This document shows positions 789 through 16,827 of a stretch of 25,592 nt of DNA, piece by piece. Under the pieces are notes generated by a model. That model searched no databases. It was given only the letters and a program-made list of their open reading frames with translations, and had not been told where the DNA came from. Made by a program: the position numbers and the translations under genes. Origin of the DNA: a virus; IMG/VR virus record IMGVR_UViG_3300011113_000039, positions 1 to 25,592 of that record. One strand, 5' to 3'. How positions within the stretch are numbered: position 1 is the first letter of the stretch; every line of letters starts with the position of its first letter.

Positions 789-3014
789 ATGAAAATACAG
801 GACATGGAGATAATTGCACAGATAGAGGCAGAAGAGAATATTGCCTATGGTGTAAATGATAGTGCATTATCTAATGATAGAGCAACAGCGATTGACTATT
901 ATCTAGGACAACCATTCGGTAACGAAGAAGAAGGTCGTAGCCAAGTTGTATCTTATGACGTTCAAGACACGATTGAGTCAGCACTCCCACAACTCTTAAA
1001 AGTCTTTGTAGCCGGTGATAAGGTTGTTCAGTTTGACCCTAAAGGTCCTGAAGACCAAGACGCAGCAGACCAAGAAACAGATTACATTAACCATATCGTG
1101 ATGGAAAAGAACGAAGGCTTCAAGATATTCTACGTATGGTTTAAAGACGCATTACTCTCTAAAAACGGTTATGTAAAAGTATATGCTGAAGAAGAAGAAG
1201 AAGTAGAAGAATACGAATATAAAGGTTTAACAGACGCACAACTACAAATGTTAGCGTCAGATGAGAAGACAGAAGTATTAGAGCATACAGCTTATCCTGA
1301 CCCATCTGTAAACATGGATGCACTTATCCAACAAGCTATGGCAATGGGACAAGACCCATCTACCATTATGCAACCTATGTTACATGACGTTAAGCTCAAG
1401 GTTACAGAAAAGAATACAGAGATTGTTATTGAGAACGTAGCACCTGAAAACATGATGGTATCTGTAGAAGTATCAGGTCCTAACCTACAAGATGCACGTT
1501 TCGTTCAGCACAGAGAAGTCATGCAATTAGCTGACATTGCTGAAACATTTGACAAGCCACTAGAATATATTAAGTCTATCATGTCAGACCTTCGTGATAC
1601 ATTTGAAGAAGAGTCTAATGCACGTGATATTTATGACGAAGAATATGACAGAGCTATTGAGTCTAACGAAGCTCTCGTTAAAGATACATACATTAAGTTA
1701 GATGGTGAAAGACATAGAGTAGTAGTGTTAGGCAATACTATTCTCTACAAAGAAAAATGCGAGTATGTTCCTTTCGCATGTATCACACCAATGATAATGC
1801 CACATAGACATATTGGTCGTTCTTATGCTGACTTGACTATGGACATTCAGCTTATCAAGTCTACACTTATTCGTGGTCAGTTAGATAACATGTATCTAGC
1901 TAACAATGGTCGTTATGCTATCTCTGATAGAGTCAACCTAGACGATATGTTGACAAGCCGTCCAGGTGGTATTGTTCGTGTAGAAGGTGACCCAGGTTCA
2001 GGCATTATGCCTTTATCACATCCACCATTACCAGCATCATCATTCGGTATGGTTGAATACATGGACTCTATGAAAGAGAAGAGAACAGGTATCACAGCAT
2101 ATAACCAAGGCTTAGACTCTAATAGTCTTAACAAGACAGCTAGTGGCGTATCACAGATAATGAACGCTGCTCAACAACGTATAGAGTTAGTAGCTAGAAC
2201 ATTTGCAGAAACAGGTGTAAAAGAACTATTTAAACTTGTTCACAGACTTGTTAGAACTACACTTACTAAACCTGACATTGTTCGTATTAGAAACAAATGG
2301 GTAGAAGTAGACCCAAGAGAATGGGAAGACCGTAAAGACTTATCTATCTCTGTAGGCTTAGGTGCTGGTAATAAAGACCAACAGTTAATGCACTTAACTA
2401 CTATCCTACAAATGCAAAAAGAAGCTATCCAAATTGGTATTACAAACCCAGAAAAGATATACAATGCGTTGGCTAAACTTACACAAAACGCAGGCTTTAA
2501 GAACCCTGAAGAGTTCTGGACTAATCCAGCTAACAATCCACCACAAGCACCACAAGGTCCATCTATAGAAGAACAAGCTATCCAAGCTCAAAAAGAAATA
2601 GATGCTATGAAGGTGCAAGCAGAAAATGCTCGTAAGGCTGCTGAACTAGAAGAACGTCAACGTAAAGATGCTGCTGACTATGAAATGAAACAACGTCAAC
2701 TAGCGTTTGATGAGTGGAAGACTAAACTAGAAAACGATACTAAACTTATGATAGCTGAACTACAAGCTAACAAAGATATCAAGACTACAGCTATGGGTAT
2801 AAAAGGTGCTAATCCAGACACGTTTACTAACTTTGATGAATATGGTCAAGAGCAACCTAATAATGCGTTAGCGTCTCTTGTAGAAGCTATAAACGCTAAT
2901 ATGGCTAAGTTAGTAGAACAACAAACAATGAATCATCAACAAATGGTAGAAACATTAAACAGACCTAAACAAATCGTTCGTGGTCCAGATGGTAAAGCAC
3001 AAGGTGTCGTATGA
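789..3014 (+). CDS. Portal protein, SU10-like
   Basis: Dodecameric channel at the capsid vertex through which DNA enters and leaves. The 741-residue length fits podovirus portals. The N-terminal third has the pattern of the SU10 portal family: a segment around DTIESALPQLLKVF, then GDKVVQFDPKGPEDQDAA, then a WFKDALLSKNGYVKVY segment. An acidic run follows (AEEEEEVEEYEY, near residue 135). The last 150 residues are a charged, glutamine-rich coiled coil with many K/E/Q residues, as in other portals with a long C-terminal helical barrel. The ATG at 789 has AGGA just upstream. The stop overlaps the next start as ATGA. The portal role is well supported by sequence style and by position after the terminase; the SU10 subfamily is recalled from family knowledge, not searched. 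Confidence 0.9.
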   Translation: MKIQDMEIIAQIEAEENIAYGVNDSALSNDRATAIDYYLGQPFGNEEEGRSQVVSYDVQDTIESALPQLLKVFVAGDKVVQFDPKGPEDQDAADQETDYINHIVMEKNEGFKIFYVWFKDALLSKNGYVKVYAEEEEEVEEYEYKGLTDAQLQMLASDEKTEVLEHTAYPDPSVNMDALIQQAMAMGQDPSTIMQPMLHDVKLKVTEKNTEIVIENVAPENMMVSVEVSGPNLQDARFVQHREVMQLADIAETFDKPLEYIKSIMSDLRDTFEEESNARDIYDEEYDRAIESNEALVKDTYIKLDGERHRVVVLGNTILYKEKCEYVPFACITPMIMPHRHIGRSYADLTMDIQLIKSTLIRGQLDNMYLANNGRYAISDRVNLDDMLTSRPGGIVRVEGDPGSGIMPLSHPPLPASSFGMVEYMDSMKEKRTGITAYNQGLDSNSLNKTASGVSQIMNAAQQRIELVARTFAETGVKELFKLVHRLVRTTLTKPDIVRIRNKWVEVDPREWEDRKDLSISVGLGAGNKDQQLMHLTTILQMQKEAIQIGITNPEKIYNALAKLTQNAGFKNPEEFWTNPANNPPQAPQGPSIEEQAIQAQKEIDAMKVQAENARKAAELEERQRKDAADYEMKQRQLAFDEWKTKLENDTKLMIAELQANKDIKTTAMGIKGANPDTFTNFDEYGQEQPNNALASLVEAINANMAKLVEQQTMNHQQMVETLNRPKQIVRGPDGKAQGVV

Positions 3015-5098
3015 CAGTAACCGTCAAGCATAGTAAAACTAATGCTATATCTGACTGGACACAAGCTCAGTTAGACGAGCAAATAGCTTTAGGTAACTTT
3101 CCTGCTGGAACAACATTAGCTAACATTGTATTACCTAGCGATTGGAATAATGACCATACGCTAACAGGTGTAGGCACAATGGCAGAACAAAATGCTAATA
3201 GTGTAGCTATCACAGGTGGCTCTGTAAACGGAACTACAATTGGTGCTACTACAGCATCCACAGGTAAATTTACATCTGTCACCACACCATCTGTTACAGC
3301 AACAACTAACGACCTAACATTAAGTGCTATTAGCACAGGTAATGTCAATTTAGCTACATTAGGTGGAACACAGTTTAAAGCAATAGAAGCTACAGGTTCT
3401 GTAAATATATGGAATGTTCGTGGTGGTGATGGCTCTACAACAAGCCCAAGATTTACTACAGAAGGCACAGGAACAAATATTGCAGGTCAGTTTAATACTA
3501 AAGGAACAGGTGCATTACAATTCTTTAGTGGCAATACAGAGCAAATGCGTATTACTAACACCGCTTCTGCCGTAAACTATGTTCAAGTAACAGGTGCGGC
3601 TACAGGTGCAGCTCCAACAATATCTGCTCAAGGTTCAGATGCTGCAGTAGACTTAACTTTAAATACTAAATCTACAGGCACTTTAAGACTACAATCTAAT
3701 TCAACAACAAGAGTATCAGTTAATTCAGGTGGCACAGTTGCTTTAGGTATTTCAGCTAGTGGTGGTTCAGGTTTACAAGTTATAGCAACAGGCAGTCAAG
3801 TAAACTTTACAACAGTATTAGGTTCAATTACAGGACAAATTCCTACATTAAGTATGGTAAATAGTTCTGATACTAATGTTGGATTAGGTATAGTTACCAA
3901 AGGCACAGGTGCTATAGACCTAGCCGCAGGTAGTAGTGGTGTAAATATAAGTAATGGTGGAACAGTAACAGCAGTAACATTAACAAATGCAGGAACAGGT
4001 TATACTTCATTTCCAACTGCAACTATAGCAGTTCCTACTACCGCAGGTGGTGTGCAAGGTGTAGTAAGTTTTACTCGTATGTATCCATCAGGATATACAA
4101 TAAGTTCAGGTGGCACAGGATACACAGCAGGTGATGTTCTTACTATTGTAGGTGGAACTGCTGTAACAACTGCGGCACAATTAACAGTATCCACTGTATC
4201 TAGTGGTGTAATTACAGCAGTAACAGTATCTGCTGCTAACTCATATACAGCATTACCTACCAATCCTGTATCAGTAACAGGTGGCACAGGAACAGGTGCA
4301 ACATTTAATTTAACATATAGTTTAGGTGCGGCTACAACTATATCCAACGCAGGTTCAGGCTACATAGAACAACCTACAATCACCTTTAGCGGTGGTGGTG
4401 GTAGTGGTGCTGCGGCTTATGCGACTGTGGGTTCTGTGCCAATTATTCGTTCATTAGCAGGTTCTGGTGCTTCAGGATCATCATTATCATTTTATACTCC
4501 TGCGGGCGAATCAGTAAGAATAAATGATCAAGGTGTTGCATCAAGCGGATATGTGCAATTACAAGGAGCATCAGCTACTTCTGGTGGTTCTTATGTAACA
4601 TCTTCTTATCAAAGTTTATATTTATCAGCTACTGGCGGTCAACAAATAGCGTTCTTTACTAATGGTCAAGGTCAAACTAGACAGTTTAATGTAGCCCACA
4701 CAGCATCAGCAGTTAATTATGTGCAGGTGACAGGTGCGACTACAGGTAATAGAGCAAGTATTTCAGCACAAGGTTCAGATTCAGCAGTTGGGTTAAACTA
4801 TGTTACAAAATCAAATGGTGTTCATGCCTTTTACACAAATTCAAATAGCTTACAAGTTGCTATTAGTCATGTAGCAAGCCCTGTAAATTATATTGATTTA
4901 AAAGGTTCTATTGCTACAGCATCTCCTGTAATATCAACAGCAGGTTCAGACACTAACATAGACCTAGCACTAACACCTAAAGGTACAGGTGTGGTAAGAT
5001 TTGGCACATATACAGCTAATATGGCATTAACTGTTCAAGGATATATTGAAATTAAAGATTCAGGTGGTACACTTAGGAAATTAGCAGTAATAGCTTAA
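3011..5098 (+). CDS. Repeat-rich virion fibre/decoration-like protein
   Basis: A 695-residue protein rich in Thr, Ser, Gly, Ala and Val with very few charges and essentially no cysteine, typical of beta-structured phage fibres or head decorations. At least five diverged copies of a roughly 40-residue module end in TKGTG/TKSTG (about residues 127-167, 184-223, 259-300, 564-603, 621-660). Between the third and fourth lies another repeat type built around GTGYT or GSGY (about 314-460), a motif known from phage surface proteins. The C-terminus GYIEIKDSGGTLRKLAVIA resembles a short conserved tail on other phage fibre-like proteins. It overlaps the portal stop by 4 bases and so is probably translationally coupled. 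Its place between portal and capsid genes fits a head fibre as well as a tail fibre; which one is not shown. Confidence 0.72.
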   Translation: MTVTVKHSKTNAISDWTQAQLDEQIALGNFPAGTTLANIVLPSDWNNDHTLTGVGTMAEQNANSVAITGGSVNGTTIGATTASTGKFTSVTTPSVTATTNDLTLSAISTGNVNLATLGGTQFKAIEATGSVNIWNVRGGDGSTTSPRFTTEGTGTNIAGQFNTKGTGALQFFSGNTEQMRITNTASAVNYVQVTGAATGAAPTISAQGSDAAVDLTLNTKSTGTLRLQSNSTTRVSVNSGGTVALGISASGGSGLQVIATGSQVNFTTVLGSITGQIPTLSMVNSSDTNVGLGIVTKGTGAIDLAAGSSGVNISNGGTVTAVTLTNAGTGYTSFPTATIAVPTTAGGVQGVVSFTRMYPSGYTISSGGTGYTAGDVLTIVGGTAVTTAAQLTVSTVSSGVITAVTVSAANSYTALPTNPVSVTGGTGTGATFNLTYSLGAATTISNAGSGYIEQPTITFSGGGGSGAAAYATVGSVPIIRSLAGSGASGSSLSFYTPAGESVRINDQGVASSGYVQLQGASATSGGSYVTSSYQSLYLSATGGQQIAFFTNGQGQTRQFNVAHTASAVNYVQVTGATTGNRASISAQGSDSAVGLNYVTKSNGVHAFYTNSNSLQVAISHVASPVNYIDLKGSIATASPVISTAGSDTNIDLALTPKGTGVVRFGTYTANMALTVQGYIEIKDSGGTLRKLAVIA
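3389..4990 (+). repeat. Protein-coding repeat array with a second repeat family inserted
   Basis: Coding region of the tandem beta modules. Five clear copies share the pattern VNY-x-V-x-G, then IS-x-x-GSD, then T-K-G/S-T-G. A sixth weak copy may lie at residues 513-552. Bases 3950-4393 hold the distinct GxGYT repeats, which split the first array. The copies differ by many synonymous and non-synonymous changes, so this is an old duplication rather than recent slippage. Confidence 0.7.
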
Positions 5099-5116: not shown

Positions 5117-5386
5117 ATGGCATTAATTAAATCAGTAGACACAGACTTTGGTATTCCAGCAGAGTATTGGAACATAGGTGCAGTACAAGAGGACTTTAAA
5201 GGTAAAGGCACAGAAGTCACATTCTATGGCTACGCATCTAAAGAAGCTCGTGATGCAGGTAAACAACCCTTATCAGCAGGTAAAGTTCAAATTGCAGGTG
5301 ATGAATATGTAGCAGGTGCAGATAGAGCAGCACTATACGCTATTATCAAACAAAAGCCTGAGTTTGAAGGTGCTGAAGACGCTTAA
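5117..5386 (+). CDS. Small conserved phage protein, unknown function
   Basis: 89 residues, beginning MALIKSVDTDFGIPAEYWNI and ending in an acidic tail (EFEGAEDA). The middle section (VTFYGYASKEARDAGKQPL) looks like a small beta/alpha domain. No signal peptide or membrane segment is seen. AAGGAAA sits at the right distance from the ATG, so the start is clear. The stop overlaps the next ATG by one base (TAATG). I recall similar small proteins beside portal and capsid genes in other podoviruses, which suggests a minor virion or assembly role, but no function is recognised. Real-gene status is strongly supported by ribosome binding site, spacing and codon pattern. Confidence 0.8.
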   Translation: MALIKSVDTDFGIPAEYWNIGAVQEDFKGKGTEVTFYGYASKEARDAGKQPLSAGKVQIAGDEYVAGADRAALYAIIKQKPEFEGAEDA

Positions 5387-5871
5387 TGTATTCATCTGCT
5401 TTTCAAAGTAACGCTTTCCAAAGCAATGCGTTTGAGATAGCAAGAGCAGTATCCGCCATTATTGGTGGTGTAACAGGTAGTCGTAAAAAGAAAAAGCCAC
5501 AAGTTAAGGCAAGACAAAGACGTTTCTTTATAGAAGACAAAGGGCAAATACTTATATTTGCTAATGCTGAACAAGCTCAAGCATGGACTTTAGCACAACA
5601 GCAATTATCTAAGTCTGTTAAGAAGCGTAAGAAAATATCACTTCCTATTGCAGAACCATTAGAGAAGTTAGACATATCACAGATTAAAGATGTCGCTGAA
5701 AAGTATAAGAAGACTACATCTGTAAACAAGCTACTAGAGTCTGGTAGTTATGCTAAAATAGTAACCTTGTATGAAACAATCATACAACAGGACTTCTACA
5801 TACAATCTTTAAGACGTAAGATTGAAGACCAAGATGAAGAAGATATTGCAATGTTACTCATGGCACTATAA
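5386..5871 (+). CDS. Virion-associated protein with N-terminal AFQSN repeats, unknown function
   Basis: 161 residues. The N-terminus carries AFQSN-AFQSN-AFE (residues 5-17), a short repeat I recall from other phage structural-region proteins. A basic stretch follows (RKKKK near 53 and a run of K/R to about 66), then a small domain containing FFIEDKGQILIFAN, a Lys/Leu-rich helical region, and an acidic C-terminus (EDQDEEDIAMLLMAL). The start overlaps the preceding stop by one base and has no strong ribosome binding site, so translation is probably coupled. The basic patch could touch DNA or an acidic partner such as the scaffold; that is inference. No enzymatic motif is visible. Confidence 0.75.
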   Translation: MYSSAFQSNAFQSNAFEIARAVSAIIGGVTGSRKKKKPQVKARQRRFFIEDKGQILIFANAEQAQAWTLAQQQLSKSVKKRKKISLPIAEPLEKLDISQIKDVAEKYKKTTSVNKLLESGSYAKIVTLYETIIQQDFYIQSLRRKIEDQDEEDIAMLLMAL

Positions 5872-5879
5872 GGATAATT

Positions 5880-6152
5880 ATGGTAGATAAAACATTAGAA
5901 GAAGTAAAACGTGGTGAACAAGCAGCAGTTATATTAGAGAACCCTATTTACCAAGAAGCATTACAAAAGGTTAAAGATAGTCTTATTGCTAGTATGGCTA
6001 ATAGCCCATTAGGTGATGAAAAGACCCATAACAGATTAGTTATCGCACTACAATTACTAAATCAAATTAACAAGCAACTTACTGACGTTATGCAAACAGG
6101 TAAGTTAGCAGCTATCCAAACAGATAGACCTAAGTTTAAGATATTTGGGTAA
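5880..6152 (+). CDS. Small helical phage protein, unknown function
   Basis: 90 residues, mostly predicted helix: VILENPIYQEALQKVKDSLI, then a short loop (SPLGDEKTHN), then a second amphipathic helix (LVIALQLLNQINKQLTDVMQ), and a short C-terminal tail ending KFKIFG. The ATG follows AAGGATAATT, a good ribosome binding site. It is the last gene before the terminator at 6157-6191, so it closes the portal-side transcription unit. Proteins of this size with the ENPIYQEA-x-x-K pattern occur near capsid genes in other podoviruses, but I know of no proven role. A small adaptor or assembly factor is possible. Confidence 0.75.
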   Translation: MVDKTLEEVKRGEQAAVILENPIYQEALQKVKDSLIASMANSPLGDEKTHNRLVIALQLLNQINKQLTDVMQTGKLAAIQTDRPKFKIFG

Positions 6153-7223: not shown

Positions 7224-8177
7224 ATGGCAGCATCAGCAACCAATAGTTATACCGGTAAAGGTATAGCAGAGTCTTTTGAAGACGTAATTTTTGATATTTC
7301 TCCAGAAGATACACCATTGCTTTCATTAGCAAAAAGAATGTCAGCAGGTCAAACATACCATCAATGGCAAACAGATGCACTTGCAGCAGCAGGTACTAAC
7401 AGAGCTATTGAAGGTGATGACTCATCATTCGCAACATTAGCAGCAACAACAGTATTAGGTAACTATACTCAAATCTCAAGCAAAACAGTTCAAATTTCAA
7501 ACACTTATGACGTAGTTAAAAAATATGGTCGTAAGTCTGAAGTTGCTTACCAACTTATGAAAGCTGGTAAAGAACTTAAGCGTGACATGGAGTATGCTAT
7601 TGTTCGTAACCAAGCATCATCTGCAGGTGGCGCAGCAACAGCTCGTTCAACAGCAGGTATTGAGTCTTGGATTGTTAATCGTGTATTAGCAACAGGTTCT
7701 ACATCAGGTACAACACCTGGTTTCTCAGGTGGTACAGTTGCAGCACCAACAGACGGTACTTCAGTAACATTCATTGAAGCAGACTTAAAGTCAGCATTAC
7801 AATTAGCATGGACAGACGGTGGTGAACCATCACTTATCCTTATGTCAGCTACAAACAAAGCTCGTTTCTCAGGCTTTGCTGGTATTGCTACTAAGTTCAA
7901 CAACGTTCAAGGTACAACACAAGCTACAATTACTGGCGCAGCAGACGTTTACGTTTCTGACTTCGGTAACCATACTGTGAAACTTGACCGCTTCATGCGT
8001 GACCAAGCTGTTTTATGCGTAGACCCAGGTTATGTTGGCTTAGCTTCATTACGCCCAATGGCTAAAGAAGAATTAGCTAAAACTGGTGACAGCACAAAAT
8101 GGCTCTTAACTGCAGAGTATGCACTTGTGGTTCAAAACCCAGATGCACACGCTAAAGTTCAAAACGTAGGTGCTTAG
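7224..8177 (+). CDS. Major capsid protein, SU10-like
   Basis: 317 residues, forming the icosahedral or prolate shell. The N-terminus has the SU10-type capsid pattern: SFEDVIFDISPEDTPLLSLA near residues 16-35, then a Tyr/His/Trp segment (TYHQWQTDAL), TNRAIEGDD, and a helix with RDMEYAIVRNQ. The C-terminal part carries VYVSDFGNHTVKLDRFMRD and a strand-rich end. It lacks a long N-terminal delta domain, as expected when a separate scaffold is present. AAAGGAAAAG precedes the ATG, the strongest ribosome binding site in the window, and codons are regular, both fitting very high expression. It is followed by a hairpin terminator. The capsid role is near certain from sequence type and position. Confidence 0.92.
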   Translation: MAASATNSYTGKGIAESFEDVIFDISPEDTPLLSLAKRMSAGQTYHQWQTDALAAAGTNRAIEGDDSSFATLAATTVLGNYTQISSKTVQISNTYDVVKKYGRKSEVAYQLMKAGKELKRDMEYAIVRNQASSAGGAATARSTAGIESWIVNRVLATGSTSGTTPGFSGGTVAAPTDGTSVTFIEADLKSALQLAWTDGGEPSLILMSATNKARFSGFAGIATKFNNVQGTTQATITGAADVYVSDFGNHTVKLDRFMRDQAVLCVDPGYVGLASLRPMAKEELAKTGDSTKWLLTAEYALVVQNPDAHAKVQNVGA

Positions 8178-8229: not shown

Positions 8230-8553
8230 ATGCCAATATTATTTGACCACAATAGCGTAACAGGTGTAAGTCAGTACTTTGACTATGACCCAGCTAAAGA
8301 TACATATTACCTAACTTCTACTCAAGACTTGAGTGGCATGTTAGACAAAATTAAACAGTCTAGAGATAACCCTGAAATATGGGATAAAGGCGTTAAACAA
8401 GAATGGGCGCACTTTGCTAGTATTCCACCTGTAGTGGAAATGCAGTTAAAGCAAAAGGGTATAGATATATATAACCCTAACCAAACTAAAGAACTCATAA
8501 AAGAAATAAATGAAAACTATCCATATCTTAAGTTGACTACTAAACGTGGATGA
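8230..8553 (+). CDS. Conserved small phage protein, unknown function
   Basis: 107 residues beginning MPILFDHNSVTGVSQYFDYD, a pattern I recall from small proteins next to capsid genes in other podoviruses. A central helix (LDKIKQSRDNPEIWDKGVKQ) leads to EWAHFASIPPVVEMQLKQKG, then NPNQTKELIKEINENYPYLK. There is no membrane segment or catalytic motif. The ATG directly follows the T-rich tail of the terminator and lacks a ribosome binding site at normal distance, so initiation is either leaderless-like or weak. The stop overlaps the next start (ATGA). The conserved style makes it a real gene; the function is unknown. Confidence 0.78.
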   Translation: MPILFDHNSVTGVSQYFDYDPAKDTYYLTSTQDLSGMLDKIKQSRDNPEIWDKGVKQEWAHFASIPPVVEMQLKQKGIDIYNPNQTKELIKEINENYPYLKLTTKRG

Positions 8554-8672
8554 TATTTTATACAGGTAAAACATTAAACGGTCATTACAGAACTGATAGA
8601 ATGACTAAGAGAAGAAAGTCTGATAAAGATAAAAGATATTATCAACATTTGCAAAGAATCTTAAATAGATAA
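8550..8672 (+). CDS. Short basic protein, unknown function
   Basis: A 40-residue reading frame starting in a 4-base ATGA overlap with the preceding stop and ending one base before the TTG start of the glycosyltransferase. It is strongly basic and hydrophilic, with TKRRKSDKDKRYYQHLQRIL in the C-terminal half, and has no hydrophobic segment. It fills what would otherwise be a 120-base gap in an otherwise gapless region, and its overlap style matches neighbouring junctions. It could bind nucleic acid or an acidic surface. No family is recognised. A non-coding alternative cannot be excluded at this length. Confidence 0.55.
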   Translation: MIFYTGKTLNGHYRTDRMTKRRKSDKDKRYYQHLQRILNR

Positions 8673-8673
8673 A

Positions 8674-9996
8674 TTGGATAAAGAAGAATTAAAGCAAGTA
8701 CAGTTAGCCATACATGACCTTATACAAAAAGAACAGTATGAGGTTGCTATGCCTATTATTAACGAAGTATTAATGTTGTATCCAAATGATGCACCTACAT
8801 TAAACTTCTTGGGTTATATATGGTTGATGGGTGATAAACCTGCATTTGCATATCAACTATTTCGTAGAGCATTACAAGAACAACCAGGCAACAAAGCATT
8901 ATGGACTTCTCTAGGTCGTGCATGTCACGAAATGGATATGTTTGAAGATGCTATTAAATACTTTTTAAAGTCAGCAGAATTAGACCCTAGCTATGCTATG
9001 GCTTACTCTAATGCTAGTGCTTCACTCGTTCAAATGTCTAAATGGGAAGACGCAGAAAAAGCAGCAAAGATGGCTTTGGAATGTGACCCTAAAGAATTAC
9101 ATGCACAATTAAACCTAGCTCATAGTTACTTAGCTAAAGGACAATGGGTAGAAGGTTGGAAAGAATGGGATAAGTCACTAGGTGGCAAGTTCCGTAAAGA
9201 ATTAGTCTATGGTGATGAACCTAGATGGGATGGTTCTAAAGACAAAACTATAGTTATTTATGGTGAACAAGGTTTAGGTGATGAGATATTCTATGCTTCA
9301 TGTATACCTGACGCTATAGACATTAGCAAAAAAGTCTATATAGACTGTGATGAACGCTTAGAAACACTATTTAAACGTAGTTTTCCTAAAGCAGAAGTGC
9401 ATGGCACTCGTAAACAAGATAATGTGAGGTGGTTAGATGGTCTTAACTTTGACGCAAGGTGTGGAATTGGCGGTTTACCTCAGTTTTTCAGAACAACAAA
9501 CAAGAGCTTTCCTGGGACTCCTTTTCTAGTTCCTGATACAGAACAAGTAAATATGTGGAAGTCCATGTTTAAGACATGGGGTAAGACAGTTATAGGTATC
9601 ACAACTAAAGGTGGTACATTTAGAACCAATGCTAAAGGTCGTCAACTTACAGAAGATGACTTGCAACCATTACTTAAACGCAAAGATATACAGTTAGTAA
9701 GCCTAGACTATAGCGTAGAACGCAAAATTGATGGTATTAAGTACTTTGAATTTGCGACAGACGCAAAAGATTATGACGTTACAGCATCATTAATAGCTGC
9801 TTGTGACATGATATTAGGTGTAAACACTACAGCATTGCATTGTAGTGCTGCTATGGGCGTTAAAACATGGTGTTTAGTACCTAAATGGCATCAATGGCGT
9901 TATGCACAACCAAGTATACCATGGTATCGCCACATGAGACTAATTTATCAAGACGATAGAACGTGGAAAGAAGTCATTGAGCAACTTAATATCTAA
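8674..9996 (+). CDS. TPR-containing glycosyltransferase
   Basis: 440 residues. Residues about 5-150 are three to four tetratricopeptide repeats, with typical spacing such as ALWTSLGRACHEMDMFEDAI and AMAYSNASASLVQ. Residues about 190-440 form a GT-B type sugar transferase of the heptosyltransferase/TPR-transferase kind. They include GEQGLGDEIFYAS (197-209), YIDCDERLETLF, and the C-terminal ILGVNTTALHCSAAMGVKTW (380-399) with the conserved histidine H389. The usual aspartate before the threonine is Asn here (VNTT). It would transfer a sugar from a nucleotide donor to a protein or surface glycan. The start is TTG; the only in-frame stop upstream is 12 bases away, and the first internal ATG would remove the first repeat. 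The ribosome binding site is weak. It overlaps the methyltransferase by 20 bases. Confidence 0.85.
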   Translation: MDKEELKQVQLAIHDLIQKEQYEVAMPIINEVLMLYPNDAPTLNFLGYIWLMGDKPAFAYQLFRRALQEQPGNKALWTSLGRACHEMDMFEDAIKYFLKSAELDPSYAMAYSNASASLVQMSKWEDAEKAAKMALECDPKELHAQLNLAHSYLAKGQWVEGWKEWDKSLGGKFRKELVYGDEPRWDGSKDKTIVIYGEQGLGDEIFYASCIPDAIDISKKVYIDCDERLETLFKRSFPKAEVHGTRKQDNVRWLDGLNFDARCGIGGLPQFFRTTNKSFPGTPFLVPDTEQVNMWKSMFKTWGKTVIGITTKGGTFRTNAKGRQLTEDDLQPLLKRKDIQLVSLDYSVERKIDGIKYFEFATDAKDYDVTASLIAACDMILGVNTTALHCSAAMGVKTWCLVPKWHQWRYAQPSIPWYRHMRLIYQDDRTWKEVIEQLNI

Positions 9997-10489
9997 CGAA
10001 TATAGGGAAATGCAGGCAAAACTGCATGAAAATCCTGAATACGGTGTAGCAAGTGTAGCTTATGCACCTATTGTTGATGAAATTATCAAGAACCATAACA
10101 TTACTAACTTATTAGACTACGGTGCAGGTAAATGTAGACTAAAAGATGCAATAAAATGTGTAGTAAATTACACACCTTATGAACCAAGTAACGAATTATG
10201 GAGTCAAACACCAGAACCATGCGAATTTGTTACATGTATAGACGTTCTTGAACATATAGAACCAGAATTACTAGATAATGTACTAGATGACTTGCAAAGA
10301 GTCGTAGATAAATATGGTCTGTTTACAATACACACAGGTCCAGCAGCTAAAACTTTACCAGATGGTCGTAATGCTCACTTAATTCAACAACCATTAGCAT
10401 GGTGGGAAGACAAAATAAAACTAAGATTTAAAATAATTAAACAAGTAGCTATGACTAATGGTTGTATCTTCTTTGTTAAAAAAGGATAA
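9977..10489 (+). CDS. SAM-dependent class I methyltransferase
   Basis: 170 residues. Motif I is LLDYGAGKCRLKD (45-57), the glycine-rich SAM-binding loop. FVTCIDVLEHIEPE (84-97) is the motif II/III region typical of small-molecule and sugar methyltransferases, followed by a C-terminal strand pair ending GCIFFVKKG. A DGRNAHLIQQPLAWWEDKI segment is shared with methyltransferases found beside glycosyltransferases in phages, as I recall. The start is uncertain: TTG 9977 gives the full protein, while ATG 10010 has AGGG only two bases upstream. It lacks an obvious DNA-target domain, so a sugar or protein methyltransferase is likelier than a DNA methylase. With the preceding gene it forms a two-step modification pair. 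Confidence 0.82.
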   Translation: MSNLISNEYREMQAKLHENPEYGVASVAYAPIVDEIIKNHNITNLLDYGAGKCRLKDAIKCVVNYTPYEPSNELWSQTPEPCEFVTCIDVLEHIEPELLDNVLDDLQRVVDKYGLFTIHTGPAAKTLPDGRNAHLIQQPLAWWEDKIKLRFKIIKQVAMTNGCIFFVKKG

Positions 10490-10491
10490 CT

Positions 10492-11100
10492 ATGGCGTTC
10501 ACAAATTACAGTTCATTCGTAACGGTAGTAGAAAACTATCTAGCACGAACAGACTTATCATCACAAATACCTGACTTTATTCAACTAGCACAAACTAGAA
10601 TGAGTCGTGACTTACGCACACAAAAGATGTTAAGTTCTACTACATTGTCTTTATCATCAGGAACAGTAGCATTTCCTAGTGACTTATTAGAAGTAAGAGA
10701 AATACATATACAAGGTAACCCTGTTATTAGACTAGAGTATCAGTCACCAGACTTATTCTTTAGAGATGGTCAAACAACACTTTCAGGTATGCCACATTAC
10801 TTTACAATGGTAGGTTCAAACTTCCAATTTGCACCTGCACCTGACTCTACAATGACACTTAGCTTATTGTATTATGCACAACCTACATTTATCTCTACAA
10901 CAACAGCAAGTAACTTATATTTAGTTAATTATCCAGATGCTTTACTCTATTCAACATTAGCAGAAGCAGAACCTTATTTAATGAACGACAACCGTATTCA
11001 AACATGGTCAGCGTTATACGACAGAGCTATTGCTAATATTAAAACAAATGATTTGGGTGCAACATATCCATATACAACATTAAGCGTTACGCCAAGATAA
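10492..11100 (+). CDS. Head-tail adaptor protein, SU10-like
   Basis: 202 residues. It starts with AFTNYSSFVTVVENYLARTD, then IPDFIQLAQTRMSRDLRTQK, then a beta-rich middle (ALPSD-like VAFPSDLLEVREI) and a helical C-terminus with LYDRAIANIKTND. This helix-sheet-helix arrangement matches the SU10/P22 gp4-type adaptor that docks beneath the portal and joins it to the tail nozzle. Length and position within the neck/tail block agree. AAGGATAACT precedes the ATG. I place it in the SU10 adaptor family from memory of the motif pattern. Confidence 0.8.
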   Translation: MAFTNYSSFVTVVENYLARTDLSSQIPDFIQLAQTRMSRDLRTQKMLSSTTLSLSSGTVAFPSDLLEVREIHIQGNPVIRLEYQSPDLFFRDGQTTLSGMPHYFTMVGSNFQFAPAPDSTMTLSLLYYAQPTFISTTTASNLYLVNYPDALLYSTLAEAEPYLMNDNRIQTWSALYDRAIANIKTNDLGATYPYTTLSVTPR

Positions 11101-16118: not shown

Positions 16119-16432
16119 TGTCTAGGGACATGTATCGTAAGTTAAATTGGCAAGGTGGCACGCCAAGAGAAGTATCAGAAGTAGTAAATAACCTTGTGGA
16201 AGGAAAGTCTAACAATACAGGTGACTTTTCTACATCTACAAGCTCTACAACAACTACATTATATGATGAACGTATAGGTTATAATAGCGTAATATTATTT
16301 ATGCCATTAGACCATAACTCGTCTCAAGAACTTAAAGATATTTACTTTACAAACTTTGCTAAAGGAAGTTGCACAGTTAATCATGGTAATCATGCAACTG
16401 CAAGAACTTATCGTTACGCTATCATTGCATGA
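16118..16432 (+). CDS. Small beta-rich virion protein, unknown function
   Basis: 104 residues with a short helix (TPREVSEVVNNLVEGKSNNT), a Ser/Thr stretch (FSTSTSSTTTTLYDERIG), a strand NSVILFMPLD, and a C-terminal beta pair (CTVNHGNHATARTYRYAIIA). I recall closely similar small proteins directly after nozzle genes in other podoviruses, so a part of the tail tip or neck is plausible. It starts at TAATG overlap and ends in ATGA overlap, so it is coupled at both ends. The function is unknown. Confidence 0.72.
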   Translation: MSRDMYRKLNWQGGTPREVSEVVNNLVEGKSNNTGDFSTSTSSTTTTLYDERIGYNSVILFMPLDHNSSQELKDIYFTNFAKGSCTVNHGNHATARTYRYAIIA

Positions 16433-16827
16433 TATTACACTACATACCTAAAGATAATTTACGTCAACATTGGGACTATGTAAAACATGGTCTTGAATTA
16501 GTAAGACAACGTGGTCATACATCTTGGATAGTAGAAGATGTTTACTGTGACTGTTATGAAAACAGGTCTATGTTATTTATAGGCATTATAAACAATAAAG
16601 CAGTAGGTTTTGTTGTTTTACAACCTATTGGTGATGCGCTTCATATATGGATAACGTGGTCAACACTTCACGATATTACTATCTTTCAACAAGCATGGCA
16701 AGAAATACAAGCAATAGCAAAACAAGGCGGTAAGACTAAAGTTACATTCAATTCACAAAGAAAAGGATGGGAACGTAGGGCTAGACAAATGGGTTTTAAA
16801 CCTCAAACATGGGAATATACACTTTAA
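16429..16827 (+). CDS. GNAT-fold-like internal virion protein
   Basis: 132 residues. Strand-helix order resembles the GNAT acetyltransferase fold: MLFIGIINNKAVGFVVLQPI in the mid-section, then LHIWITWS, then a helix (IFQQAWQEIQAIAKQGG), then VTFNSQRKGWERRARQMGF and a final strand with WEYTL. The usual acetyl-CoA loop (Q/R-x-x-G-x-G/A) is not evident, so catalysis is doubtful. Podoviruses often have such a GNAT-like protein beside ejection genes, where it is thought to be a structural or chaperone element. It overlaps the preceding stop by 4 bases. Confidence 0.68.
   Translation: MILHYIPKDNLRQHWDYVKHGLELVRQRGHTSWIVEDVYCDCYENRSMLFIGIINNKAVGFVVLQPIGDALHIWITWSTLHDITIFQQAWQEIQAIAKQGGKTKVTFNSQRKGWERRARQMGFKPQTWEYTL

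Follow-up and report, generated by a model that had tools for sequence, protein, structure and literature searches.

The locus described here raises the question of which protein a virus would modify with a predicted sugar transferase and a methyltransferase encoded amid its virion genes. We analysed the full 25,592-nt stretch of IMG/VR virus record IMGVR_UViG_3300011113_000039 (hereafter the window, to which all coordinates refer), which has a G+C content of 36%. Its structural block is of the podovirus type, with portal, capsid and adaptor recognised by Pfam as SU10 proteins (2.8e-196 for the portal; see Table 1 for the others). An earlier note, made from the letters alone, had described between the capsid and adaptor genes a GT-B type transferase fused to tetratricopeptide repeats (TPR) and followed by an overlapping SAM methyltransferase (MT). 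The Pfam matches, the ORF borders and the predicted models bear out this arrangement. In all 16 relatives inspected the methyltransferase starts with TTG. We consider the transferase and the methyltransferase to be real genes because both are under purifying selection in all seven comparisons with relatives (dN/dS 0.06-0.21). Elsewhere in the window, the 695-aa protein between the portal and p90 (3011-5098) displays a weak similarity to head-decoration proteins (phrog_9703, 2e-11); at E 1e-4 it matched nothing in the relatives that were compared first.

Table 1. Features of the island and its borders in the window
Feature	Position	Strand	Basis
SU10-type major capsid protein, proposed acceptor	7224-8177	+	Pfam SU10_MCP 6e-91
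Capsid residues 152-178, Ser/Thr-rich loop	7677-7757	+	Capsid comparison
Thr163-Thr164-Pro165 of capsid, candidate glycosylation site	7710-7718	+	Inferred site
p107, conserved 107-aa gene preceding the transferase	8230-8553	+	phrog_3982
40-aa ORF located in the gap upstream of the transferase	8550-8672	+	Weak phrog_7316 match, E 0.016
Whole TPR-transferase ORF, 440 aa, TTG start	8674-9996	+	ORF, Pfam, model
TPR domain of transferase, residues 1-170, presumed acceptor-binding module	8674-9183	+	Pfam, predicted model
GT-B, GT9-like domain of transferase, residues 171-440	9184-9996	+	Model; Pfam matches of relatives
GEQGLGDE motif, transferase residues 197-204	9262-9285	+	QGxGD invariant in 197/197 phage proteins
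VNTTALH motif, transferase residues 383-389	9820-9840	+	GT9 Asp position, variable in the phage family
Class I SAM methyltransferase, 170 aa, TTG start	9977-10489	+	phrog match, model; 20-nt overlap with transferase
SU10 adaptor, which closes the island on the right	10492-11100	+	Pfam SU10_adaptor 2.7e-33

Residues 3-167 of the TPR-transferase (TPR-GT) are covered by TPR_2 (3.9e-13) and other TPR matches from Pfam, and the C-terminal half of the window protein has no Pfam match. In three of the four distant phage members tested, this half matched Glyco_transf_9 (PF01075) with E values of 0.00026-0.028 and scores of 14.2-20.8 bits, which are below the curated cutoff of 22. The AlphaFold model (pLDDT 87.9, pTM 0.83), together with the Pfam matches, places a TPR N-terminus and a GT-B C-terminus in one protein, as in enzymes of the FlmG type. 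The model matches SPINDLY (8dtf, E 4.9e-11) and OGT over its whole length, but the domain placement differs, as the rmsd over the whole is near 16 Å. The VIA-align Z score near 20 is partly carried by the TPR repeats and is not taken as proof of GT41 membership. Among the best 60 of 205 profile matches, those to OGT chains covered TPR residues only, and no heptosyltransferase appeared among the 50 structural matches listed for the model. The TPR domain presumably serves as the acceptor-binding module.

Two motifs bear on whether the GT half could be active. The QGxGD motif in its first subdomain is the GxGD-type motif expected in the N-terminal part of GT9 domains, and most of the invariant copies (157 of 197) have the form GEQGxGDE. 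The Asp corresponding to this motif is the catalytic base in heptosyltransferases. The second motif reads VNTTALH in the window, as the earlier note had stated, with no Asp at the usual position of D-[ST]-x-x-x-H. The same note had warned that activity should not be assumed for this reason, and this argument did not hold. At this position the 36 close rows of the alignment have Asn, and the 107 of 121 phage ORFs that could be parsed have N, P, Q, T or C. Because the Asp is absent from every parsed copy, VNTTALH is no argument for a dead enzyme, and its replacement is a family trait that says little about activity. The same replacement could be read as the mark of a protein that has lost catalysis and serves as a chaperone or scaffold in assembly. 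We rejected this reading on conservation, as QGxGD is kept throughout and the Asp position varies family-wide. Sugar-modifying enzymes, moreover, accompany the TPR-GT in 134 of 136 distinct loci. A catalytically dead role is in our opinion very improbable.

The second gene of the island matched phrog_24759 (1.6e-20), and its match to Pfam Methyltransf_23 was below the cutoff. The model (pLDDT 92.7) has the class I SAM fold, and its structural matches, at E 2.7e-6 and weaker, point to no specific family. D47, G49 and G51 of the SAM motif D-x-G-x-G, and likewise K52, are invariant in 18 of 18 sequences. Fold and motif together identify the protein as a class I SAM methyltransferase.

We inspected which genes accompany the transferase in related phages, using samples fetched by the transferase (126 of 131 stretches, 273 of 343 and at least 531 of 599, with at most 80 kept from each). 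Where the flanks of distinct loci were long enough to judge, the capsid gene lies upstream of the transferase in 106 of 106 loci, and 77 of 79 have the adaptor gene downstream of it. The census of the cassette between transferase and adaptor covered 136 distinct loci. The methyltransferase stands alone in 71 of them, is followed by a GT8 in 22 and preceded by one in 7 (29 in either order). Other loci carry a GT9 with a 239-aa GT-like protein (13), an FkbM methyltransferase with a DxD GT (8), the methyltransferase with GT9 and the 239-aa protein (7) or a GT8 only (2). Two loci (L250 and L364) have no gene between transferase and adaptor, and four other arrangements were found once each. No Pfam match was obtained for the 239-aa and DxD proteins, whose labels as putative GTs come from motifs read by eye. 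On the transferase tree, the cassette type changed at least 16 times in 99 copies of the window clade (shuffled mean 29.9). Since the partners vary and were exchanged so many times, the pair seen in the window is one version of a cassette with interchangeable contents. The earlier note had proposed to survey related phages for co-occurrence of the two genes; the transferase proved to be constant, but the methyltransferase is only one of several second enzymes.

Several further genes were seen in or near the island of relatives. The Manatee Spring phage MW202512 has consecutive genes for TPR-GT, an HNH nuclease, MT and GT8. ORFs resembling homing nucleases are inserted in the island of L029 (3505-4104, GIY-YIG-like by eye) and L144 (13019-13492, HNH by Pfam). 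In L540 (MW202711) a gene annotated as 'putative glycosyltransferase' (5344-5973) lies between the equivalents of p107 and the adaptor; it was unmatched by any profile used, and is another occupant of the island. A further GT8 is located just upstream of the terminase in 9 of 10 distinct relatives with at least 1.7 kb of flank there (relatives noted for it: L190, L192, L193, L195, L197, L198, L200, L203, L209 and L217), and its counterpart would fall beyond the left end of the window. The 132-aa ORF at 16429-16827 has counterparts within the structural block of several relatives. From its sequence and the annotations of relatives it is probably a GNAT-like acetyltransferase, which could act on the same sugar as the island enzymes.

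Fetching loci by the transferase biases the samples towards its presence, so we studied presence and absence only in scans anchored on three capsids. The transferase was carried by 43 of 64, 40 of 66 and 44 of 45 scorable loci. On the capsid tree of 86 representatives (59 with the transferase, hereafter plus, and 27 without, minus), the distribution is explained by a single change, compared with an average of 23 in shuffles; the key capsid branch has a support of only 74, and the scoring was asymmetric, as a minus required a visible adaptor and a plus did not. Another 42 loci were unscorable: in 6 a TPR-GT accompanies a capsid match that is partial or split, in 34 the sequence stops shortly after the capsid gene, and in 2 neither gene is seen. 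The last two (L231 and L454) represent one contig, and the capsid of L231 is nearest to minus capsids. Given the single change on the capsid tree, the transferase behaves like a core gene of the virion block. Its distances track the capsid and portal distances (0.94-0.96), and correlations with the capsid distances were 0.96 for the TPR part, 0.95 for the GT part and 0.97 for the portal. Mirror-tree partial correlations, in which we sought the acceptor, did not single out the capsid.

Capsids have also recombined past the island. Two relatives (L194 and L198) share 92-94% capsid identity with the window, but the region from p107 to the adaptor is only 56-69% identical (p107 56-58%), which suggests a recent exchange of the capsid gene. 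In MW202512 the enzyme trio follows a capsid that is unalignable at the Thr-rich loop discussed below, which shows that the enzyme is compatible with a different capsid. The lineage behaviour of the transferase does not itself name the acceptor.

The relatives of the transferase in bacteria point to a different acceptor. None of the 26 hits of a genome scan with the close-relative profile was confirmed, and a wider family profile recovered 74 loci from bacterial genomes, mostly Betaproteobacteria. More than one TPR-GT is present in 56 of these loci, and MT or GT8 relatives in 37. The clusters (L260-L333), from Betaproteobacteria and others, often combine tandem TPR-GTs with MT and GT8. An ORF for a PilA-type pilin was identified in 38 of the 74 loci, mostly within about 350 bp of a TPR-GT, and in all three genomes searched whole this ORF was the best pilin match of the genome. 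We had also considered flagellin as the neighbour, and a motif pattern returned one flagellin-like ORF in the 74 loci. The gene neighbourhoods suggest that the bacterial TPR-GT enzymes act on pilin. It is possible that the clusters represent an uncharacterised pilin-modification system, and our literature search found no description of a TPR-GT with pilin. When 399 genomes from a single order were searched with the capsid for a host, there was one match, with no TPR-GT in the stretch read.

Alteration of the host surface, which the earlier note had given as the alternative to virion decoration, thus gains a specific form from these neighbours. The island could re-glycosylate a surface filament of the host, most likely type IV pilin, and so block superinfection or shield the receptor. 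This reading stays alive because, in bacteria, the closest relatives of the transferase lie in clusters with pilin genes, rather than with phage-like proteins. However, no pilin ORF was present in 338 non-bacterial loci. The gene was gained or lost once and is fixed in the virion block, whereas a gene acting on the host surface would be expected to come and go. The phage transferases also form one side of a branch (support 78) opposite 54 bacterial ones, and not a set of repeated captures. We therefore regard modification of the host pilin as unlikely.

A candidate acceptor within the virion emerged from comparing plus and minus capsids. Among Ser/Thr positions conserved in plus capsids, 4 of 14 are absent from the minus set, as against 8 of 96 for the other residue classes. 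Two of the four columns are adjacent Thr in one loop, which is shorter in most minus capsids. Amid highly variable residues, 56 of 57 plus rows have Thr in one of the loop columns, and the adjoining column has Thr or Ser in 58 of 58. The motif [ST][ST]P occurs in the loop of 48 of 59 plus capsids and of 1 of 26 minus capsids, from which L536 was omitted for its long branch. In 11 named phages without the transferase, a single loop motif was read (TSP, in L544). As the loop difference and the presence pattern both rest on one evolutionary event, their match may be a coincidence.

The acceptor could also be a virion protein other than the capsid, such as p107, the adaptor or a fibre. This would fit with p107, which lies no more than 1.2 kb upstream of the transferase in 141 of 144 distinct loci, and with L194 and L198, where the capsid segregated apart from the island. 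No comparable Ser/Thr contrast was seen in other proteins, with one plus-specific column in p107, none in the adaptor, none in the scaffold and one in the portal; the comparison covered these four and the capsid, and fibres are variable proteins. We hold another virion protein to be quite improbable as the acceptor.

On balance we lean slightly towards a virion protein as the acceptor, with the capsid as the most likely one, and the pair in the window is best explained as the form that a phage island for virion glycosylation takes here. The decoration of a virion protein foreseen by the earlier note is retained in that a putative protein-directed transferase and a putative sugar methyltransferase sit in the structural block, but not as regards the methyltransferase, which is no fixed partner. 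We propose O-glycosylation of the capsid followed by methylation or extension, with the capsid as a candidate acceptor and the chemistry as predicted. During late gene expression, the TPR domain would dock on the virion protein in the cytoplasm, most likely at the Thr-Thr-Pro loop of the major capsid protein, and the GT9-like domain would take a sugar from a nucleotide-sugar of the host and attach it to Ser/Thr. In phages of the window type this sugar would then be methylated by the small methyltransferase, and in related phages GT9, GT8, the DxD GT or the FkbM methyltransferase would extend or cap it instead. A fuller scenario, which we put forward tentatively and with some doubt, is that of a capsid-dedicated O-glycosyltransferase, taken once from the pilin-adjoining bacterial family, which one branch of SU10-like capsids came to have as an obligate partner; in these capsids the Thr-Thr-Pro loop would have evolved as the acceptor, and downstream swaps would vary the sugar.

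The transferase accompanies a whole capsid branch while its partners swap, which suggests that freshwater phages of this kind put sugars on their own particles. If so, a large group of uncultured podoviruses from freshwater and soil would glycosylate its particles by a soluble TPR-guided enzyme, and the sugar of the coat would be modular, with related phages wearing different coats. It would also provide a compact two-gene system for glycosylating a self-assembling shell, and variation in capsid glycans could be tested in phages other than mycobacteriophages.

Several known systems resemble the island in part. The GT9 heptosyltransferases share with it the C-terminal motif over which distant phage members match PF01075, but the phage enzyme is fused to TPR, has the Asp of the second motif replaced and is not expected to act on LPS. 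OGT and SPINDLY (GT41), the best structural matches to the whole predicted model, likewise have TPR followed by GT-B; identity is 12-14%, the domains are placed differently and, among the listed profile matches, none supports membership in GT41 by the sequence of the GT half. The giant Caulobacter phages CcrColossus and CcrBL9 and phage DSL-LC06 have the same MT and GT9 families adjacent and in the same order, but none of the three was among the matches listed in the TPR-GT phage search, and in CcrColossus and CcrBL9 the run follows the tail genes, so that location and genome type differ from the window. The virion glycosylation islands of mycobacteriophages (Freeman 2023, as cited in PMC11600133 and PMC12619734) resemble it in gene content. 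Cluster O phages are said to use glycosyltransferases in tandem beside an O-methyltransferase to modify capsid and tail tube (PMC11600133; also PMC12619734). They belong to another phage group, the passages of these papers on the islands mention no TPR-GT fusion, and the claim there comes from experiment and here from genes. A precedent for the architecture is FlmG of Caulobacter, described in the relevant part of PMC7591256 as an N-terminal TPR docking domain with a C-terminal GT-B domain that O-glycosylates flagellin, a self-assembling structural protein bound by the TPR, in the cytoplasm. The window enzyme differs from FlmG, as far as that account goes, in being phage-borne, shorter and fixed beside a capsid gene. 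A FlmG-type gene may be expected next to the filament protein that it modifies; the neighbour is the capsid gene in the phages and, in the bacterial loci, a pilin ORF in 38 of 74 and a flagellin-like ORF in 1 of 74.
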